From contig CACMZN010000020.1 in NCBI GenBank assembly GCA_902618175.1, positions 1 through 37,020 of the forward strand: a DNA stretch of 37,020 nucleotides. The letters are read 5' to 3'. The notes beneath the pieces were generated by a model that was given only the letters and a program-made list of their open reading frames with translations, was not told the origin of the DNA and did no database searches. Below are positions 1-9,846 of this stretch, piece after piece. Numbering within the stretch: the first letter of the stretch is position 1; every line of letters begins with the position of its first letter. The stretch comes from an uncultured Verrucomicrobiota bacterium (GTDB lineage: Bacteria > Verrucomicrobiota > Verrucomicrobiia > Opitutales > Seribacteraceae). Position numbers and translations under genes: made by a program.

Positions 1-380
1 AATCGGCATAGCCGGATGCGGTAGACGAATCTGGGGACTCATAACCCTCATCCGGCGTACCGTAAATATCGTCAGGGTAATTCACTCCCTCATCGGGCGT
101 ACCATATCCGTAGTCGGGGGTTCCATATGCGTCGTCTGGAGAAGTCATGCCATCGTCCGGGGTGGCGTACCCATAATCGGGTGTCCAGTATCCGTCGTCA
201 GGCGTACCATATCCAACCTCAGGCGTACCGTATCCATAATCGGGCGTTCCATATGAGTCGTCGGGAGAAGTCATGCCATCGTCCGGGGTGGCGTACCCAT
301 AATCGGGCGTTCCATATGAGTCGTCGGGAGAAGTCATGCCATCGTCGGGGGTGCCGTAACCCTCATCCGGGAGTTGAAGT
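1..380 (-). repeat. Degenerate short repeats encoding PDDGYGTPDYG-type motifs
   Basis: Read on minus, the DNA encodes a run of 7-residue-like steps such as TPDDGY, TPDYGYA and TPDDGMTSPDD. At DNA level 21- to 60-base blocks recur, for example the block giving DGMTSPDDSYGTPDYGYA, which is present at least twice here and again at 760-830. It continues off the left edge, so total length is unknown. Confidence 0.9.
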
Positions 381-3127
381 CCGTCGTTGAAAGAATTGAT
401 TGGAGTGATGTTTCGAGAGGCAAGATATTGCTCAACATCAAGCATTGAGAAGACATTCAATGGGTTGGAAGGATAGGTAAAAGCAGCCTCTTGTTCCCAA
501 GTCACTCCGTTGTAGTACATCATGGGTATCTGGATCTCTGCAAACCCGTCGGAATTGATCACTTCAACAAAGGAATAGTTTTGAGGAGTGACGTATCCGG
601 AAGATGTATCAGCCAAATATTCGATAGCTGGAGCATCCAAGTAGTATACATGAAGAATACCGTCCTCTGGCGTTGTATACGCATCATCGGGAGTGGCGTA
701 TCCATAGTCGGGGGTAGCATACCCAACATCGGGCATACCGTATCCGTCGTCTGGAGAAGTCATGCCATCGTCCGGGGTGGCGTATCCATAATCAGGCGTT
801 CCATATGAGTCGTCGGGAGAAGTCATGCCATCGTCAGGCGTGCCATATCCATAGTCAGGCATACCGATGCCATCGGCTGGCGTACCGTATCCGTCGTAAG
901 GCGGATCTTCCGTATTGGAACTATAGGGCACGCCTCCGATCTGTACCAAAGCATCAAATTGGGGACCTTGGTTGCTCTGCAAGTCGGTGAGCGTGGGATG
1001 ATAGGCCATCAGCCCGTCGTTCTCGCCGGTGTATTCGTACTCGTCGTCGGGAGTGCCGGTAGCGCCGTCTGGACCGGGCCCGAGCAGGGTCACGGGTTCG
1101 AGGTACAGCGCAGAATAATAAGGCCCCGAGGCCGGGTCATACGACTCGGTGAACGCATAGGGACCGGGGGTCCAGGACCCAGTGGGCGAAGGTTGAGCGA
1201 AAAAGCCGAGGTCGTTCTCATTCAGCAAGTAAACCGGCAGGGGCGGTGCCTGGGTCGGGAAAGAGCCGGGCACTTCACCGCGGACGTTCGGGAGACCGAA
1301 ACCGAGATGGTTCAACACGTCGGTCTCGGTGGCAAATTGCGGGGCGAGAGCGAGGGTGTCGTTTCCGGGAGTGAACTCGTAGCCGTCGTCGGGGGTGCCG
1401 GGTATCCCATCGGGTCCTAATTCCGCTCCGGGATTGGCGGGATCGTATCCCATGGGCATGGCGGGTTCGAGAGCGAGAACACCATTCAGGTCATAAATTG
1501 CAAAATAGGGAGGCAGGTCGTCTGTGGTGCCGGGTACGCCGTCGGGTCCGTCGAAGTTGAGGCCGGGTTGTCCGGTGAGGGTCTGCAGTTCCGTCGAATT
1601 GTAGATCTCGTATACCGAGTAAGGGGGATCTTCCGTATCGGAACCATAGGGCACGCCTCCGATCTGTACCAAAGCATCAAATTGGGGACCTTGGTTGCTC
1701 TGCAAGTCGGTGAGCGTGGGATGATAGGCCATCAGCCCGTCGTTCTCGCCGGTGTATTCGTACTCGTCGTCGGGAGTGCCGGTAGCGCCGTCTGGACCGG
1801 GCCCGAGCAGGGTCACGGGTTCGAGGTACAGCGCAGAATAATAAGGCCCCGAGGCCGGGTCATACGACTCGGTGAACGCATAGGGACCGGGGGTCCAGGA
1901 CCCAGTGGGCGAAGGTTGAGCGAAAAAGCCGAGGTCGTTCTCATTCAGCAAGTAAACCGGCAGGGGCGGTGCCTGGGTCGGGAAGGAGCCGGGCACTTCA
2001 CCGCGGACGTTCGGGAGACCGAAACCGAGATGGTTCAACACGTCGGTCTCGGTGGCAAATTGCGGGGCGAGAGCGAGGGTGTCGTTTCCGGGAGTGAACT
2101 CGTAGCCGTCGTCGGGGGTGCCGGGTATCCCATCGGGTCCTAATTCCGCTCCGGGATTGGCGGGATCGTATCCCATGGGCATGGCGGGTTCGAGAGCGAG
2201 AACACCATTCAGGTCATAAATTGCAAAATAGGGAGGCAGGTCGTCTGTGGTGCCGGGTACGCCGTCGGGTCCGTCGAAGTTGAGGCCGGGTTGTCCGGTG
2301 AGGGTCTGCAGTTCCGTCGAATTGTAGATCTCGTAAACCGAGTAAGGCGGATTGGATTGAGACACTACAGTCAAAGGGGACTGCATGCCATTGTGATAGA
2401 TGCAATAGTAAAGGAGACTGCCTGTAAAGTCTTGGGGAATGTTAAGGATAAGCTGATTACCAGGTGGAAAACCGTTCAATGGTGAGCCTGAGACGTAAAC
2501 CGACGAAGTATCGCCGTAGAATTCACCAATCATAAAAGGATGACCGCCGGAAACCCCAACATCCTCGAACATATAGGTGTTTCCGCTCACAAATGGATAA
2601 TTGTTGAGGTCCACGCTAATTCCGGTTTCGTCAGTTACGTCGTAGAAGGGGGCGGAAAAATTTCCGCCGCTGACGAATAAGGTAGTCGGGGGAGGAGTGG
2701 AAACAAGAGGAGCGGGAGAAACGTTGAGCGGGGCTTCCATTGAACCGTGAGCGGTGCAGTAGTAGATTAAAGTATCAGAAAATCCAACAGGTATGGTGAG
2801 AGATATTTGTCCGGATGCACCAGACAATGGACCCCCGGAAACATGCGGGCTTGGCGATCTGCCTAAATTTCCAATCATGAATGGATGACCGCCGGAAACA
2901 CCTACGTCCATGAATAAGTAGGTGTTTCCGGGCTCAAAGGGATAACTGGTGAGGTCCACGCTGATTCCGGTTTCGTCAGTAATGTCGTAGTAGGGGGCGG
3001 AAAAATTTCCGCCGCTGACGAAAAAGGTAGTCTGGGCAGGTAGATTTGCGTTTAGAAGACACAGTGTACCCATCATCCAAAGCAATGGAGCCTTGAACGC
3101 CTTGAACCTTATAGGTCTGCTAGGCAT
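1..3127 (-). CDS. Secreted cupredoxin / tandem-repeat protein (C-terminus beyond window)
   Basis: An open frame of about 1042 codons runs from ATG at 3127 past the left edge without a stop; I checked the frame at several points. Residues 1-31 look like a signal peptide, with a hydrophobic core LLWMMGTLCLLNA and likely cleavage after LPA. Two cupredoxin-like domains follow (about 35-136 and 150-254). Each has GGHPFMIG (His81, His196) and a YYC-x2-H-x2-M end (Cys124/His127/Met130 and Cys242/His245/Met248), the ligand set of type-1 copper sites. Residues of about 262-743 are two nearly identical 241-residue units, each with three GPDGxxGTxDD motifs that resemble calcium-binding DxDG loops. After about 744 comes PDDGYGTPDYG low-complexity sequence, interrupted by a non-repetitive segment (about 823-918). 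It starts 44 bases after the stop of the secreted protein upstream, so the two are probably co-transcribed. The start lacks a clear Shine-Dalgarno. Function is unknown; extracellular copper and calcium binding or adhesion is inference. Confidence 0.85.
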   Translation of the reverse strand, partial: MPSRPIRFKAFKAPLLWMMGTLCLLNANLPAQTTFFVSGGNFSAPYYDITDETGISVDLTSYPFEPGNTYLFMDVGVSGGHPFMIGNLGRSPSPHVSGGPLSGASGQISLTIPVGFSDTLIYYCTAHGSMEAPLNVSPAPLVSTPPPTTLFVSGGNFSAPFYDVTDETGISVDLNNYPFVSGNTYMFEDVGVSGGHPFMIGEFYGDTSSVYVSGSPLNGFPPGNQLILNIPQDFTGSLLYYCIYHNGMQSPLTVVSQSNPPYSVYEIYNSTELQTLTGQPGLNFDGPDGVPGTTDDLPPYFAIYDLNGVLALEPAMPMGYDPANPGAELGPDGIPGTPDDGYEFTPGNDTLALAPQFATETDVLNHLGFGLPNVRGEVPGSFPTQAPPLPVYLLNENDLGFFAQPSPTGSWTPGPYAFTESYDPASGPYYSALYLEPVTLLGPGPDGATGTPDDEYEYTGENDGLMAYHPTLTDLQSNQGPQFDALVQIGGVPYGSDTEDPPYSVYEIYNSTELQTLTGQPGLNFDGPDGVPGTTDDLPPYFAIYDLNGVLALEPAMPMGYDPANPGAELGPDGIPGTPDDGYEFTPGNDTLALAPQFATETDVLNHLGFGLPNVRGEVPGSFPTQAPPLPVYLLNENDLGFFAQPSPTGSWTPGPYAFTESYDPASGPYYSALYLEPVTLLGPGPDGATGTPDDEYEYTGENDGLMAYHPTLTDLQSNQGPQFDALVQIGGVPYSSNTEDPPYDGYGTPADGIGMPDYGYGTPDDGMTSPDDSYGTPDYGYATPDDGMTSPDDGYGMPDVGYATPDYGYATPDDAYTTPEDGILHVYYLDAPAIEYLADTSSGYVTPQNYSFVEVINSDGFAEIQIPMMYYNGVTWEQEAAFTYPSNPLNVFSMLDVEQYLASRNITPINSFNDGLQLPDEGYGTPDDGMTSPDDSYGTPDYGYATPDDGMTSPDDSYGTPDYGYGTPEVGYGTPDDGYWTPDYGYATPDDGMTSPDDAYGTPDYGYGTPDEGVNYPDDIYGTPDEGYESPDSSTASGYAD
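660..896 (-). repeat. Second block of PDDGY-type degenerate repeats
   Basis: This block uses the same repeat vocabulary as 1-380 (TPDYGYA, TPDDGM, TSPDD, GMPDYGYG). It lies between the 241-residue units and a non-repetitive segment of about 95 codons. The core GTPDDGY also occurs once in each 241-residue unit, which suggests where the array may have come from. Confidence 0.88.
897..1619 (-). repeat. 723-bp tandem repeat, copy closer to the C-terminus
   Basis: In-frame direct repeat (241 codons) inside the cupredoxin repeat protein. It is collinear with 1620-2342 at a constant offset of 723 bases. By eye only about five bases differ, for example near 902, 917, 923, 1264 and 1612. The near identity, synonymous sites included, points to a very recent duplication or ongoing gene conversion. 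Confidence 0.95.
1620..2342 (-). repeat. 723-bp tandem repeat, copy closer to the N-terminus
   Basis: First copy (in translation order) of the 241-codon unit, directly following the two cupredoxin domains. Each unit carries a YNSTELQTLTGQPGLNF segment, three GPDGxxGTxDD motifs and a proline-rich middle. The right boundary is set where similarity to 1619 and below stops, near 2343-2350. Confidence 0.95.
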
Positions 3128-3145
3128 GATCTGCAGGTGCGGATG

Positions 3146-3162
3146 CTTGAGAAAAACTCAAG
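3146..3162 (-). promoter_or_regulatory. Intergenic hairpin between the two secreted-protein genes
   Basis: A perfect 6-bp inverted repeat (CTTGAG / CTCAAG) with a 5-base loop sits in the 44-base gap between the upstream stop (3172) and the downstream ATG (3127). The loop reads TTTTT in the minus-strand transcript. It is too weak for a classic terminator and has no T-tail after it. It could tune expression of the second gene; this is inference. Confidence 0.35.
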
Positions 3163-3171
3163 TCTGCCTGC

Positions 3172-4773
3172 CTATGGAGCAATGGTGTCTAGTGAAATCC
3201 CTGCTGGATCTGCAGGATACGGTTCATATGCGGGATCATCCATCATTGCGGGACCATACATCGCGGGATCATCCATCATTGCGGGATCATACATCATTGC
3301 GGGATCATCCATCATTGCGGGATCATACATTAATCCGGGACCATACATCATTGCAGGATCATCCATCATTGCGGGATCATACATCGCGGGATCATCCATC
3401 ATTGCAGGATCATCCATCATTGCAGGATCATCGCTCATTACATCATCGGGATCATACATCAATACTGCCGGAACTGGTTCAATCGTGGTACCTACGGGTA
3501 TCGAAGAAACTATCGGTTCAGGTATTGGAATGTCGTCCATCGGCGTAGACGGAACTGGTTCAGGCGCAGGTGTTGTGTAGTTGCCCATCAATATCCCCGG
3601 ACCTTTGAATCCACCCGGAACATTGCCGGTGGTGGCGACCACGCGTACCCGGGCGTCGGGGACGCTTACGCCAGGTGCATCGATGGAAGCATCCCAGTGG
3701 AAATTGTGGCTGCCACCTCCATAAGAAGCATCTGGGCCATAAGCTGGAGGTCCCATCGAGTGATCCATGGAAGTTATCTCAGACCAAGTGTTTCCACCGT
3801 CGATGGAGAAGAAAGCTTCGACATAGAAAATTTCACCAGGCATAATATCAATGGAATATTCGACCCGATAGATGCCAGGCGCGGGCATTGGTACCACATT
3901 TACGCCATGCACCATGGGTCCGCCCGGATCCGATCCCGAAGAAGGCGGCTGGGAACCAGGGAAGGGGTCGTATCCGGAGTCGTCAATGGGTGGCGTCGTC
4001 GGTCCATCTGGTCCAACGCCGATGGAAAGTGGTTGGGGTTCTTCAAAAATTCCGATGGGATTTCCAAGTAATGGGTACAAGTATTCATTTGCGTTGCTCA
4101 TGGGTCCAGGAACACCAGTGGCATCATAAAAAATGGGGTTGTTTGTATCCACCATGCCGCCCATTGGCATGGAAACAGGACGGTACATTGACGGACCGAA
4201 TTCTTCCACAAGAAACCAAACTATTTCAAATCCGTGAGGGTGTTCGACTCCCGTCAAGGCGTAGGTTCCGGGTGCGGTCGATCCATTAATGCCCCCGGCG
4301 CTCATTCCCAAAGAATCCGTGTATGATGGAGTTAAGTAATAGACCGAAGAACCAGCTGGCACTTGCGGGTCATCACTTTCAATTACATTGCCAATAGGCA
4401 TCATATCGTACGGAGGTCCGTTCAGATTGGCTTCGAATAAAGCGACATCGGGATTGGCGGGTTGTTCGATCATCATCATTACCGGTAATGAAAAAACGTC
4501 AGGCCCACTATACATCCAACCAGAGGGAGGGTTCCCATGTGGACCGGAAAATGTTACCGGTATAATTTGATAAAAAGGAGCACCTTCCGGCTGGTATATT
4601 GCATGCGGATAGGGATAATCCGCGGGATCAGTCGGAGGCATGTTTGGATCCAACAAACTAACCGCAGTGGCATGGTCGAGATTCCAGACGTAAAAGGTGC
4701 TGTCTGGTTGAGCTTGGCTAGTAAAGAAAGAGGCCAAGAGCGTTAAGGTGACAAAGGGTTTTTTAATATTCAT
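3172..4773 (-). CDS. Secreted Met/Asp/Pro-repeat protein, unknown function
   Basis: A 533-residue protein with a clear signal peptide (Lys-rich start, hydrophobic TLTLLASFFTS, probable cleavage after SQA). The N-terminal half is Pro-, Met- and Gly-rich with no domain I recognise; it includes a Met cluster (SMPMGGM) and HPHGFEIVW. At roughly residues 295-410 there is an Ig/BNR-like stretch with FFSIDGGNTWSEI and VPDARVRVVATTG, typical of extracellular beta-sandwich or sialidase-like repeats. Residues 448-515 are twelve units of DDPAMM, YDPAMM or YGPAMM, and the end is short and non-repetitive. It is the first gene of a probable two-gene unit with the cupredoxin protein. Met-rich and acidic repeats could bind copper(I) or calcium, but nothing in the sequence proves this. 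Confidence 0.85.
   Translation of the reverse strand: MNIKKPFVTLTLLASFFTSQAQPDSTFYVWNLDHATAVSLLDPNMPPTDPADYPYPHAIYQPEGAPFYQIIPVTFSGPHGNPPSGWMYSGPDVFSLPVMMMIEQPANPDVALFEANLNGPPYDMMPIGNVIESDDPQVPAGSSVYYLTPSYTDSLGMSAGGINGSTAPGTYALTGVEHPHGFEIVWFLVEEFGPSMYRPVSMPMGGMVDTNNPIFYDATGVPGPMSNANEYLYPLLGNPIGIFEEPQPLSIGVGPDGPTTPPIDDSGYDPFPGSQPPSSGSDPGGPMVHGVNVVPMPAPGIYRVEYSIDIMPGEIFYVEAFFSIDGGNTWSEITSMDHSMGPPAYGPDASYGGGSHNFHWDASIDAPGVSVPDARVRVVATTGNVPGGFKGPGILMGNYTTPAPEPVPSTPMDDIPIPEPIVSSIPVGTTIEPVPAVLMYDPDDVMSDDPAMMDDPAMMDDPAMYDPAMMDDPAMMYGPGLMYDPAMMDDPAMMYDPAMMDDPAMYGPAMMDDPAYEPYPADPAGISLDTIAP
3229..3432 (-). repeat. 15/18-bp tandem array encoding DDPAMM / YDPAM
   Basis: About twelve units of 15 or 18 bases (read on minus: ATG ATG GAT GAT CCC GCA and variants) encode residues 448-515 of the secreted protein. 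All units keep frame. Because the unit contains no stop in other frames, long open frames also appear on the plus strand here; those are shadows. Confidence 0.95.
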
Positions 4774-4932
4774 GTTTAGATTAGTTGAAAGTATATACTA
4801 CGACATCCTTCTCTTAGCGCAGAAACCAAATTAAATACATGTTTTTTTTTCTTTGTTTCTTGCAACCTGATAACCTTGCGAGTTGATACATTGATACTTG
4901 TCTTCGTCGGCATAACCTACAGATCAGATATT
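4774..4932. other. Divergent intergenic region with a direct repeat
   Basis: This 159-base region separates the secreted-protein unit (minus) from the sugar-binding protein gene (plus). It holds a run of T residues near 4843-4853 and a direct repeat TTGATAC (4883-4889 and 4891-4897, 8-base period) upstream of the binding-protein gene. The repeat could be an activator or repressor half-site pair. I see no confident -10/-35 pair. Confidence 0.3.
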
Positions 4933-6225
4933 ATGCAATCATTCACCAAGTCGCTCCCGTCATCTTTTCAGCCAATTCATCGTATCCTTCTTTTTATTCT
5001 CTCGACGATGTCTTGCCATGCCGACGATCTGGAGATGTGGATCAGTTCTTTCCAAGATCAGATTTACTATGAAAATATGGGTGAATTATATGCAGAAAAA
5101 AAAGGAAAGGATTTGAATCTGGTGGTGAAAGCATACGGATTCAGGGAAATGCCCGACAAATTGGGCGTCGCCATAAGGAGCGGTGAGGGAATCCCCGATA
5201 TCGTCCAGTTGGACGAAATCTTTTTCGGTGTCTTTCTCAATGGTCCCAGTCCTTTTCTCGATTTGTCTACCCGGGCACGAAAAGCTGGGCTTGACCAGAC
5301 AATTCATCCACGCAGGCTGGAGGTTTTCAGTTACAACGAAAAATTGCTTGGTCTTCCTCAGTCGCTGAGCGCCATGATGCTTTACTACCGCAAGGATCTA
5401 TTTTATGAGTTTGGCATCGAACCCGAGGATCTGAAGACTTGGAGTGATCTGGCTAGATTGGGAAAGAAATTGATGGACGAACGCGGACAAAGATTTTTGG
5501 CTCTGGACGGAACACTGTTTGAAGTATTCCTCAAGCAAAGAGGTACGGATCTTTTTGACCGAGAGGGAAATTTTCTCCCCGATGAGGAGATTGCGTTGGA
5601 AATTTTGACTGAATTCGGCAACTTATCTGATTCTCAGATTGCCGCCATGCCCGATCGCGGTTCCATTTTTGACCCCGTCTTTTTCAGTGGGGATTTGGAA
5701 ACCGGTGAGGTCTTGTGTGTGGCCGGTGCGGACTGGTATGGATTGGATCTCTTCCAGCAATTTGCTCCTGGTATGCAGGGGATGTGGGGAATGATGCCTT
5801 TGCCCACTTGGCGGGATGAGGAAGGCAAGCTTGGTCCGCGTACGGCGACTTTTGCCGGACAGGGGCTGATGATCTGCAAAGCCAGTGAAAAAAAGAGAGA
5901 AGCATGGAAATTCATCGAATTCGTGATGAAGGACAAGGATGCGAATGCCCAGCGTTTTCTGCAGGGAAATAGTTTCCCTGCATATATGCCGGCTTGGAAA
6001 GATCCTAGATTGTTGGGGAAAATGGAGTATTTCGAGCAGTCGATGGGGAAATTGTTGGTGAATTTAGCAAATGAAATTCCTGCTGCGGTGGTGAATCCGG
6101 GACGTCCACAAGCCATTTTTCTGATGCAGGAAAACTATTTCGGTTCAGTCATGTTCGGATCTTTATCTCCCCGACAAGCTCTTGATCAGTATAAGGAGGC
6201 AATGCAGACTTCCTGGGGAAATTGA
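4933..6225 (+). CDS. ABC sugar transporter, extracellular solute-binding protein
   Basis: A 430-residue family-1 solute-binding protein, the usual length for CUT1 importers. I chose ATG at 4933 over an upstream TTG (4876) because it gives a clean signal peptide (hydrophobic ILLFILSTMS, cleavage after CHA). Typical features are the early IPDIVQLDE segment, the central LLGLPQSLSAMMLYYRKDLF segment (substrate pocket and hinge) and WKFIEFVMKDK near the C-terminal lobe. It delivers a sugar or oligosaccharide to the two permeases encoded next. The next gene follows after 35 bases and is probably in the same operon. The substrate cannot be read from the sequence. Confidence 0.9.
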   Translation: MQSFTKSLPSSFQPIHRILLFILSTMSCHADDLEMWISSFQDQIYYENMGELYAEKKGKDLNLVVKAYGFREMPDKLGVAIRSGEGIPDIVQLDEIFFGVFLNGPSPFLDLSTRARKAGLDQTIHPRRLEVFSYNEKLLGLPQSLSAMMLYYRKDLFYEFGIEPEDLKTWSDLARLGKKLMDERGQRFLALDGTLFEVFLKQRGTDLFDREGNFLPDEEIALEILTEFGNLSDSQIAAMPDRGSIFDPVFFSGDLETGEVLCVAGADWYGLDLFQQFAPGMQGMWGMMPLPTWRDEEGKLGPRTATFAGQGLMICKASEKKREAWKFIEFVMKDKDANAQRFLQGNSFPAYMPAWKDPRLLGKMEYFEQSMGKLLVNLANEIPAAVVNPGRPQAIFLMQENYFGSVMFGSLSPRQALDQYKEAMQTSWGN

Positions 6226-6260
6226 ATCAGATTAATGCAGGGATTACCTGAAGAATCGGA

Positions 6261-7181
6261 ATGAGAAATCCATCGTTTTCCATCTGGATCCTGTTAGGAC
6301 CTTTCATCGGAATTTGGTTCATGTTCTGGCTGATTCCGATGATGCTGGGAATTGAAATATCCCTGCAGGATCCGGTTTTTCGACCAAGCATGGCCGGGGA
6401 TACAGGGAACAATTTCGGAACTTCCTATGTGGGAACGGAGAATTTCAAGCGGGTTGCAAATGATCCGAAATTCTGGAAATCTTTGGAAAATTCTCTCTTC
6501 TACGTGATCGGTTCGATCCTCATCATTCTCCCCCTTTCCTTTTTTCTGGCAATGAATCTGAAGGAAATTCATCGAGTCCCACGCGGACTACTGGTCTTTT
6601 GCCTGCTGGTTCCCGGTTTGGCTTTACCGGGAGTTTTGTCCACTTTGTTTTATCTATTCTTCCATGGCCGGAATGGAATTCTCAACCAGTTTTTAGTGAT
6701 TCCTTTGGGAATGGAACCAATCAATTGGATGATGGATCCGAAATTCATCATGCCTTCGCTCATTCTCCAGTCGGTCTGGCGATGGACGGGGATGATCACG
6801 CTGTTTTTTCTCTGCGGCTTAGAGGCGGTTCCGAAATGGCAGATCGAAACGGCCAGGCTGGAAGGAGCTGGCGCATGGATGCGGATAAGCTGGGTTTGGA
6901 TCCCATGCATTCGTCATCTTGGGGTTTTTGCAGCGGTCTTTCTGGCAGTGGATGGATTCGCTTCCTTCTCCGGCGCATACGTACTTCTGGGTGGATCGGG
7001 AGGAATGCTGGATTCCGGCTTGCTCCTGGTCACCTATCTATACCAAGTCGCTTTCCCCGGAGGAGGGGGAAGGTTCGATTTTCCCGCAGCCGCGGCCATG
7101 AGTTTGATCGCATTTCCGTTTGCGGCAGCTCTCTCATATGCCTTGCTGTGGATCCGTTCATCCGCTTCCTCAAGCAAATGA
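6261..7181 (+). CDS. ABC sugar transporter permease (MalF/UgpA type)
   Basis: A 306-residue inner-membrane permease with about six hydrophobic segments. Near residues 190-215 it has the cytoplasmic EAA loop (ETARLEGAGAWMRISWVWIP), which docks on the ATPase. It starts at ATG 6261 and its stop overlaps the start of the second permease (ATGA), so translation is coupled. It forms the transmembrane heterodimer with that permease. The family is clear; the substrate is unknown. Confidence 0.92.
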   Translation: MRNPSFSIWILLGPFIGIWFMFWLIPMMLGIEISLQDPVFRPSMAGDTGNNFGTSYVGTENFKRVANDPKFWKSLENSLFYVIGSILIILPLSFFLAMNLKEIHRVPRGLLVFCLLVPGLALPGVLSTLFYLFFHGRNGILNQFLVIPLGMEPINWMMDPKFIMPSLILQSVWRWTGMITLFFLCGLEAVPKWQIETARLEGAGAWMRISWVWIPCIRHLGVFAAVFLAVDGFASFSGAYVLLGGSGGMLDSGLLLVTYLYQVAFPGGGGRFDFPAAAAMSLIAFPFAAALSYALLWIRSSASSSK

Positions 7182-7981
7182 GAATTGCTTCCTTATTGCT
7201 TTCACTCGCTGCCGCCTGTCTTTGTTTGTATCCCTTGCTTTGGATGTTCCTTTCATCCTTCAAGACTAACCGAGAAATTTTTCAACCCACGAATTTCTTC
7301 CCTTCGATTTTCGATTGGAGCGCATACCGTTCTTTGCTCACTGGAGAATTTCTTCCTTTTCAGAAATACTTGATCAATTCCCTGCTTTTGTCTTCCGGAC
7401 AGGCGATTCTGGCAACTTCGAGTTCGTTGGCGGCAGGTTTTGCGCTGGCGAAATTTCGATTTCCCGGAAGATCCGTTTTGGTGGGACTGGCGATCCTGTT
7501 GATATTGATTCCGAAACAGACTATGGTGGTGCCCACCTTTGAATGGTTGGATCGGTTGAACCTCATCGGGAGCAGGTGGTCCCTGTTGTTGCCCGGAGCA
7601 GTTTCCGGATTGGGCGTATTGTTCTTCCTGCAGATTTTCCGGAATTTGCCGAACGAATGGATGGACCAGGCAAGAATCGAGGGATTGAGTCCGCTGAGAG
7701 CCTTTTTCCTCGTTGTTCCTCTGGCCATGCCAGGCGTAGTTGGGTTCGGGGTTTTGCATTTCGTGCTCAGTTGGCAGGATCATCTGCTGCCACTGGTTGT
7801 GTTGGACGACGAAAACATCACCTTACCTCTGGCTTTGACGAAATTAAGGGATGCAAGTTTTCGCATTCCCGAAGCGGTGGGCATGGCCGCGGCCTGTCTT
7901 TCTCTGCTGCCCGTATTGGTCCTTTTTGGTCTCTGCATAGGCAACATGAAGACGGCTCTGAGAGAGGTGGTTCAGAGTTGA
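7178..7981 (+). CDS. ABC sugar transporter permease (MalG/UgpE type)
   Basis: A 267-residue second permease. The frame is open further upstream, but the real start is ATG 7178, which overlaps the previous stop (ATGA) and begins with a hydrophobic first helix (MRIASLLLSLAAACLCLYPL). Hallmarks are LWMFLSSFKTN after helix 1, typical of MalG-type proteins, and the EAA loop (MDQARIEGLSPLRAFFLVVP). The last ten bases overlap tail-to-tail with the ATPase gene on the other strand. Confidence 0.92.
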   Translation: MRIASLLLSLAAACLCLYPLLWMFLSSFKTNREIFQPTNFFPSIFDWSAYRSLLTGEFLPFQKYLINSLLLSSGQAILATSSSLAAGFALAKFRFPGRSVLVGLAILLILIPKQTMVVPTFEWLDRLNLIGSRWSLLLPGAVSGLGVLFFLQIFRNLPNEWMDQARIEGLSPLRAFFLVVPLAMPGVVGFGVLHFVLSWQDHLLPLVVLDDENITLPLALTKLRDASFRIPEAVGMAAACLSLLPVLVLFGLCIGNMKTALREVVQS

Positions 7982-9063
7982 ATACGGTGATTGGTTTCAG
8001 CATCGAACCAATGCGCTTTTCTCCAATTTGGTCGAACTAAAAGGCTGGATGAGGCGAATGTTTTCTCTCGGTCAAGTCGCATCCGCAGAGAATGTGAATC
8101 CTTTTTCAAATGAAGACATTGGGAATCTCCAAAGTTTTCGATTCTTTCAAGATTGGTTTTCAGGAATTCATATTGGAATCCGGTCTTTTCCGTTCTAGGT
8201 TCCAAATCCTCGGGCCGAATCCCGAGGGTGAATCGACCTGGCGGAGGAATCGGATGAGCACGTGGAATCGCAAGGGAAAAATCCCGGTTTCTAAAGATCG
8301 ATGAATTCAGATCCCCGCAGATGATCTCTCCCTCAAGGAGGTTGATGGGGGGGGTGCCGAAGAATTGAGCGACGAACAAATTATCAGGAAAATCAAAGAT
8401 TTCTTCCGGAGTTCCGACTTGAGCCACTCTGCCCTCGTTCATCACGCAAATTCTTTGACCAAGGGTCATTGCTTCAATCTGATCGTGGGTGACGAAGAGG
8501 GTGGTGCGTTGATGTTCCTGATGCAGACGGGCCAATTCCTGTCTCATTGAGGAGCGCAGATGAGCATCGAGATTGCTGAGGGGTTCATCCAGCAGATGAA
8601 TCGCTGGGTTTTTCACCAGCAATCGACCTAAGGCAACCCTTTGTCTTTGACCGCCCGAAAGTTGATGAGGCTTCCGGCGAAGGAGTTTTTCCAGACCGAG
8701 ACGTTGGGCCACGGGTCCGATGGCGTCTTGAATTTGCTGACGATTCTTTCTTCCTGCCCGTAGACCAAAAGACAAGTTTTCAAAAACGGAAAGATGAGGA
8801 AACAAAGCATAGTTTTGAAACACCATGCCGACGTTTCGATCCTTGGGTTGCCACCCGCCGACCTCCGATCCGTTGATGCGGATGCTGCCTCCGGTCGATT
8901 CGTCGAGTCCGCTGAGGATGCGTAGAAGAGTCGTCTTTCCACAGCCCGAAGGTCCGACGAGGGCCATAAGTTCCCCGCTGTTCACGGTCAAGTCGATTTC
9001 CTTCAGGGCTTTGGTGCCGTCAGGGAAGACTTTACTGAGCTTTTCAAAGATGATTTGAGACAT
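7972..9063 (-). CDS. ABC sugar importer ATPase (UgpC/MsmK/MalK family)
   Basis: A 363-residue ATPase of the normal length for CUT1 systems. It has Walker A GPSGCGKTT (37-45), Q-loop QNYALFP, signature LSGGQRQRVALGR, Walker B IHLLDEP with the D-loop, and switch THDQ. A C-terminal TOBE/MalK regulatory domain follows, with GIRPEDL and the terminal AHWFDAETN characteristic of UgpC-like proteins. It probably energises the two permeases encoded convergently beside it. The opposite orientation is unusual, because the ATPase is normally co-directional with or unlinked from the other genes. It is transcribed from the intergenic region shared with the cytochrome gene. Confidence 0.93.
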   Translation of the reverse strand: MSQIIFEKLSKVFPDGTKALKEIDLTVNSGELMALVGPSGCGKTTLLRILSGLDESTGGSIRINGSEVGGWQPKDRNVGMVFQNYALFPHLSVFENLSFGLRAGRKNRQQIQDAIGPVAQRLGLEKLLRRKPHQLSGGQRQRVALGRLLVKNPAIHLLDEPLSNLDAHLRSSMRQELARLHQEHQRTTLFVTHDQIEAMTLGQRICVMNEGRVAQVGTPEEIFDFPDNLFVAQFFGTPPINLLEGEIICGDLNSSIFRNRDFSLAIPRAHPIPPPGRFTLGIRPEDLEPRTEKTGFQYEFLKTNLERIENFGDSQCLHLKKDSHSLRMRLDREKTFASSSLLVRPNWRKAHWFDAETNHRIQL

Positions 9064-9159: not shown

Positions 9160-9846
9160 ATGTTCATACGATGCGCTATTTTTTCTGCATGTTTTCTTGT
9201 TTTGGTAGGTTCCAAAGTCAGTGGCAGTGAGAAGTCTGAAGCCAAAACCGGCAACACCATGGCGGAAATGAAAATCCTGACACGGGAATGCACGGTTTGT
9301 CATGGAGTGCGGGAGGCTCAGCGGGGGCCCATTCTAAACGGCATGGATCATTGGTATCTATCCGATCAGATCCATAAGTTCAGATCGGGAATCCGGGGCG
9401 CCCGTTCCTCCAACAAGTCGGAATATCTGATGGGCGTGGGTACCCGCAAGGTGACCACCGATCTGCAGGTTGCCTTTTTGTCAAACTGGTTTGCGAACCA
9501 GGAACCCACTCCTGCCCTTCGCACAATAAGGGGAGACGTTGAACTTGGAAGGGAATTGTATCAAAGAAGGTGTGCTTCTTGCCACGGAGTCCGCGGAGAA
9601 GGGAATCGATTATTGTTGTCCCCTTCCTTGAACAAGTTGGAGGGTTGGTATTTTCTCGAACAGATGAGGAAGTTCCGTTCCGGAGAAAGGGGGTACCATC
9701 TGCGAGACGAGGGAGGAAAAATCATGGCTGCGGCATCAAAGGATTTTTCCGATTATGATCTCAAGAACATCGTTGCTTATTCAGTGGAAGCCTTTGGCCT
9801 GCCGGAAGCCCAAGCTGTTCCAGACCGGACCGAACGGGAGAAATGA
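9160..9846 (+). CDS. Di-haem cytochrome c (c4-like), periplasmic
   Basis: A 228-residue protein with an N-terminal signal peptide (hydrophobic AIFSACFLVLVG). It has two haem c sites, CTVCH (44-48) and CASCH (138-142), about 94 residues apart, so there are two class-I cytochrome c domains as in cytochrome c4. Both domains share the pattern of haem motif, GxR, and W-Y/F-L-x-x-Q-x-x-K-F-R-S-G. Candidate axial methionines are Met91 and the Met in GKIMAAAS. It would carry electrons in the periplasm toward a terminal oxidase or other reductase. It ends seven bases before the convergent murU stop. Its partner is not visible in the window. Confidence 0.88.
   Translation: MFIRCAIFSACFLVLVGSKVSGSEKSEAKTGNTMAEMKILTRECTVCHGVREAQRGPILNGMDHWYLSDQIHKFRSGIRGARSSNKSEYLMGVGTRKVTTDLQVAFLSNWFANQEPTPALRTIRGDVELGRELYQRRCASCHGVRGEGNRLLLSPSLNKLEGWYFLEQMRKFRSGERGYHLRDEGGKIMAAASKDFSDYDLKNIVAYSVEAFGLPEAQAVPDRTEREK

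Follow-up and report, generated by a model that had tools for sequence, protein, structure and literature searches.

Two adjacent genes for modular, probably surface-displayed proteins with cupredoxin-like domains and putative calcium loops in an uncultured Opitutales bacterium

RESULTS

Two neighboring genes encode exported modular proteins

The two genes at the start of the window (the whole stretch of 37,020 nt that was analyzed, contig CACMZN010000020.1) encode exported proteins, here called A and B, that belong to a modular family of presumably surface-located proteins of marine Opitutales. In A, two cupredoxin-like domains with type-1-copper ligand sets precede modules carrying exact copies of a calcium-binding motif and a repeat tail; B is a smaller protein with an Ig-like domain. 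We consider it rather probable that A and B are adhesion or capture proteins of the cell surface, stiffened by calcium, in which the copper site would have a structural or a redox role. The bacterium itself is presumably marine, judging from related records and from the phages that have a domain in common with A.

Both frames are open and lie on the minus strand (B at 3172–4773, 533 aa; A at 2–3127, 1042 aa read without a stop), with a gap of 44 bases between them in the open reading frames, as given in the first-pass annotation. The window is an entire contig (C20) of a draft genome (G000, 67% complete), so that A is truncated at its C terminus, where the contig stops. Sec-type signal peptides can be discerned by eye in A (...LWMMGTLCLLNANLPAQ/TT) and in B (...LLASFFTSQAQ/PD), in agreement with the export first proposed for both. 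With Pfam and NCBIfam, neither protein matches a family above the cut-off. A match to gp350 is weak, falls in a low-complexity tail, and was rejected. Relatives of A are found in G004 and G013, two further genomes of the genus in which the A and B pair recurs; in G000, contig C38 carries another pair, in which a cupredoxin protein follows a B-like protein with an Ig domain. The pairing of the two genes noted at first is, in this way, also found in relatives.

The cupredoxin-like domains of A

The best-known roles of cupredoxins are in electron transfer and copper tolerance. The two type-1-copper-like ligand sets of the first-pass annotation are present in A as two H...CxxHxxM sets, with the cysteines at positions 124 and 242. 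Domain 1 (A residues ∼30–141; 2705–3040, minus strand; ligands H81, C124, H127, and M130) is supported by AlphaFold, alignment, and PDB matches; domain 2 (A residues ∼149–258; 2354–2683, minus strand; ligands H196, C242, H245, and M248) is recognized by the same profile and is 62% identical to domain 1. The His...Cys-x2-His-x2-Met spacing is that of amicyanin. None of the four ligands varies among the 13 domains aligned (13 of 13), nor in a wider alignment that includes phage domains. The HPF and CxxHxxM motifs are intact in 30 of the 38 distinct bacterial domains (of the remaining eight, two are truncated, five have an altered spacing, and one, in G019, has lost the ligands). The ligands are thus nearly invariant while the rest of the domain diverges to ∼40% identity.

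The AlphaFold model of the domain (pLDDT 94.4, pTM 0.87) finds in the PDB mainly multicopper oxidases, copper nitrite reductases, small laccases, and the purple cupredoxin (5fc9). The top structural matches are mostly cupredoxins with Z between 6.4 and 7.0 (maximum 7.4, the caution level of the tool being 8), and SO1698, described as an aspartic peptidase, ties with them in Z score. No match reaches 0.001 in Foldseek with the same model. The best PDB sequence match of the domain profile is a copper nitrite reductase (E 0.0088); a PDB sequence search with a single domain gives nothing useful. The Pfam cupredoxin models match none of 13 members, and divergent members can be missed by them. Together, the structural data give moderate support to a predicted cupredoxin-like fold, which agrees with the domain type first suggested. 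The two domains would be competent for a type-1 copper site: they are like type-1 copper cupredoxins (amicyanin, the NirK domain, small laccases, 5fc9) in predicted fold and ligand set, but they escape the Pfam models and are arranged in tandem as building blocks of long repeat proteins.

Within the family, 23 of 42 genomes have the domain; elsewhere in the class, few do. It occurs in a cadherin-like repeat protein of the same genome (contig C71, repeats named by eye) and in giant adhesin-like open frames of 2,000–12,157 aa. The frame of ∼12,157 aa (L058, contig C150 of G027) has four cupredoxin-like domains in tandem, and one of ∼10,840 aa (contig C56 of G337) also holds such domains. A phage form appears in 235 phage records, most of them from phages that infect Synechococcus and Prochlorococcus, and the matching PHROG families are named tail fibre and baseplate. 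HP[FL] and CxxHxxM are kept in all 12 of 12 viral domains. With these cyanophage proteins (phrog_677, phrog_30742) A has the domain in common, matching phrog_677 at 8.5e-17, but A is a bacterial exported protein with calcium-motif modules and PD repeats. Searches of the literature returned no publication that deals with cupredoxin surface proteins of Verrucomicrobiota or with the domain in phages.

Calcium-motif modules and repeats of A

The motif GPDGxxGTxDD occurs six times in A (residues 286, 330, 444, 527, 571, and 685), where residue shuffling predicts 0.0003 per protein. What was first described as calcium-loop-like corresponds in all six cases exactly to the PERCAL consensus, G-x-D-G-x-x-[GN]-[TN]-x-D-D, a published and experimentally tested calcium-binding motif; by calorimetry, the consensus peptide and a motif-bearing domain of PepA bind calcium (PMC3396595). 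The exact motif is common to A and to PERCAL proteins such as the PepA peroxidase and the pseudopilin 3G20 (PMC3396595), but in A it sits inside a different, uncharacterized module. The loops of A are, on this likeness, putative calcium-binding sites.

The motifs are located in diverged module copies of ∼86–118 residues (profile–profile probability 96%). A first pair of PERCAL-bearing modules (A residues ∼262–506; 1609–2344, minus strand), recognized by motif and module matches, contains three motifs. The second pair (886–1608, minus strand) is an in-frame duplicate of 1609–2331, with 715 of 723 bases identical (98.9%), and carries three of the six motifs. The sister protein of G013 likewise repeats a module nearly unchanged, so such duplications look real rather than due to assembly error. 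There is also a canonical VYxL module without the PERCAL loop (A residues 825–911; 395–655, minus strand; profile match 2.9e-29), with homologs in no fewer than seven further genomes; a fold prediction from two sequences reaches a pLDDT of only 48.

A tail of PD heptad repeats, [GTA][TS]PDxxY/M (2–394, minus strand), is cut by the contig end, and an earlier heptad block lies at ∼656–885. Similar PD-type heptads are found in G011, G013, and G018. The last residues of A, SGYAD, resemble the start of a SGYADSxxFxLDT repeat in sister proteins. Contig C8 of the same genome opens (L116) inside such a repeat, where A breaks off (window 1–30). C8 may continue A, but the two ends overlap by 5 bases only, and the join was for that reason not accepted.

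The one complete sister of A (L037, contig C13 of G013) ends in a Trp-rich domain, residues ∼1160–1247, with the pattern WxxSxWFG...WIYH..GW.YV....WLW...GW.WT...WPYLY. In the genus, this C-terminal domain is present in 3–31 copies per genome on many proteins, and in G000 it is found at 18 places (for example, C8, 1118–1384). In the few proteins checked, it has no match in Pfam or NCBIfam. It is probably an anchor or sorting domain and is our candidate for that role; A being incomplete in the window, any such anchor of its own would lie beyond the contig end.

Protein B

The Ig-like domain of B (residues ∼289–396; 3586–3909, minus strand) has a profile in common with the N-terminal domain of FGE-sulfatase-like sister proteins and is 78% identical to that of the G004 B protein over 128 aa. 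The FGE-sulfatase-like sisters carry PF03781; no match to PF03781, the catalytic FGE domain, is found in the B proteins of the window, G004, or G013. B is, from its sequence, a shortened relative of formylglycine-generating-enzyme-like proteins: it has the N-terminal Ig-like domain as in sister loci of the FGE-sulfatase/SUMF1-like type, but not the catalytic domain. A single Asp-box-like SIDGGNTW lies inside the Ig-like domain. Of the Ig/BNR-like segment first described, the Ig part stands; the BNR propeller was rejected, since there is that single box and Pfam finds none. A PDB search with B gives no match.

At its C terminus, B has a Met-rich DPAMM tail (3175–3456, minus strand) encoded by an 18-bp DNA repeat. 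The tail had been credited with twelve units; nine are exact DPAM(M), and ∼12 are reached by counting degenerate ones. It is species-specific, with no counterpart in 56 relatives (G000 alone among the 57 genomes searched). A paralogue of B on contig C38 of the same genome has a short DPSMGYDPVM insert. In place of the Met-rich tail, sister B proteins have a C-terminal PERCAL module with one exact motif each; in the window, B has no exact PERCAL motif, with a degenerate GPDGPTTPPIDD only. Because sister B proteins end in this module, A and B have a brick in common in the sisters (E 2e-8 between A and B of G004). Residues 25–184 of B match the VYxL modules weakly (BLAST E 0.007–0.009, with one sister A).

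The slot beside an ABC importer

Divergent to A and B is an oligosaccharide-type ABC importer (4932–9063, mixed strands), assigned with Pfam. It consists of a binding protein (start inferred at 4932, plus strand), two permeases (plus strand), and a MalK-like ATPase (7972–9063, minus strand). The divergent binding protein is found in 21 genomes of the genus. In G008, G018, and G023, the contig ends in the slot, and these three are outside the count. Each of the 18 readable genomes (18 of 18) has a family member, a probable member, or a relic in this divergent slot: B plus A (G000, G004, G013), a cupredoxin protein (G001, G002, G006, G011, G020, G021, G022), an FGE-type B (G003, G007, G012, G017, G019), a protein with the module (G009), a pentapeptide protein truncated where the contig stops (G026), or a B-like gene that has decayed and has stops in every frame (G005; L110, contig C202, 2323–3458). 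We take the G026 protein as a probable member, since a similar protein in G021 continues into a cupredoxin domain. A contig end in or near the slot occurs in ∼18 of 21 genomes, as expected because repeats break assembly. In most other genera of the family, the content of the slot differs. A and B are linked to the importer by position only.

A cytochrome c gene (9160–9846) lies at the end of the ABC cluster away from A and B; G003 and G012 have a comparable gene at this position. A scan of 20 window genes recognized no copper gene; the leftward genes lie beyond the contig end.

DISCUSSION

The first-pass annotation had raised the possibility of a copper system, in which the cupredoxin domains of A would hold copper and the Met-rich tail of B would capture Cu(I). 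The conserved type-1 ligand set and the presence of such a tail are consistent with it, and a role in copper tolerance is described for CopI, which is cupredoxin-like and has regions rich in His and Met (PMC13308877). The theme of a cupredoxin with a Met-rich region is alike, but here it is split over two proteins, the Met tail is not conserved, and no copper gene is recognized in the context. The tail is confined to one species, sister B proteins end in PERCAL modules, and the domain recurs in giant adhesin-like proteins and in the tail fibres of phages. Because the tail is not conserved, no copper gene is recognized among the window genes scanned, B is FGE-related, and the neighbor is an ABC importer, extracellular copper handling is unsupported and, in our view, improbable. 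An extracellular redox chain, with type-1 copper domains at the surface exchanging electrons with the c-type cytochrome of the ABC cluster, is quite unlikely as well. The ligand set is as in electron-transfer cupredoxins and the similarly placed cytochrome genes of G003 and G012 speak for such a chain, but the cytochrome gene is >4 kb away, beyond the importer, and copies of the domain are also found in adhesin-like proteins.

The domains might, alternatively, be plain β-sandwich bricks in which the Cys/His/Met set stabilizes the fold or binds another metal, with no copper function. Their occurrence in phage tail fibres, where a redox role is unlikely, and the one member that has lost its ligands fit this reading, but the retention of the four ligands amid the divergence of the rest argues against it, and we regard it as unlikely.

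The reading that we prefer is that of surface adhesion or capture proteins. In A, the two cupredoxin domains would come first, followed by PERCAL modules stiffened by calcium and by the PD repeats as a flexible stalk, and a C-terminal domain rich in Trp would display the chain at the surface. For the copper site, a structural or a redox role would be expected. B would be a small exported partner in which, of an FGE-like protein, only the Ig-like domain remains, and the pair probably acts in adhesion or substrate capture beside the oligosaccharide importer; no domain that binds a known ligand was identified. A more specific proposal, which we put forward tentatively and with less than even confidence, is that marine Opitutales use blue-copper bricks, which they have in common with cyanophage tail fibres, in variable calcium-stiffened adhesins, and that the site serves surface recognition and not electron transfer or copper homeostasis.

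If this holds, one could test whether surface recognition or structure is among the functions of a blue-copper site. The family keeps its copper ligands nearly invariant in long adhesin-like proteins, with a domain common to the tail fibres of marine phages, and it offers a way to study the encounter of uncultured marine Verrucomicrobiota with particles and glycans.
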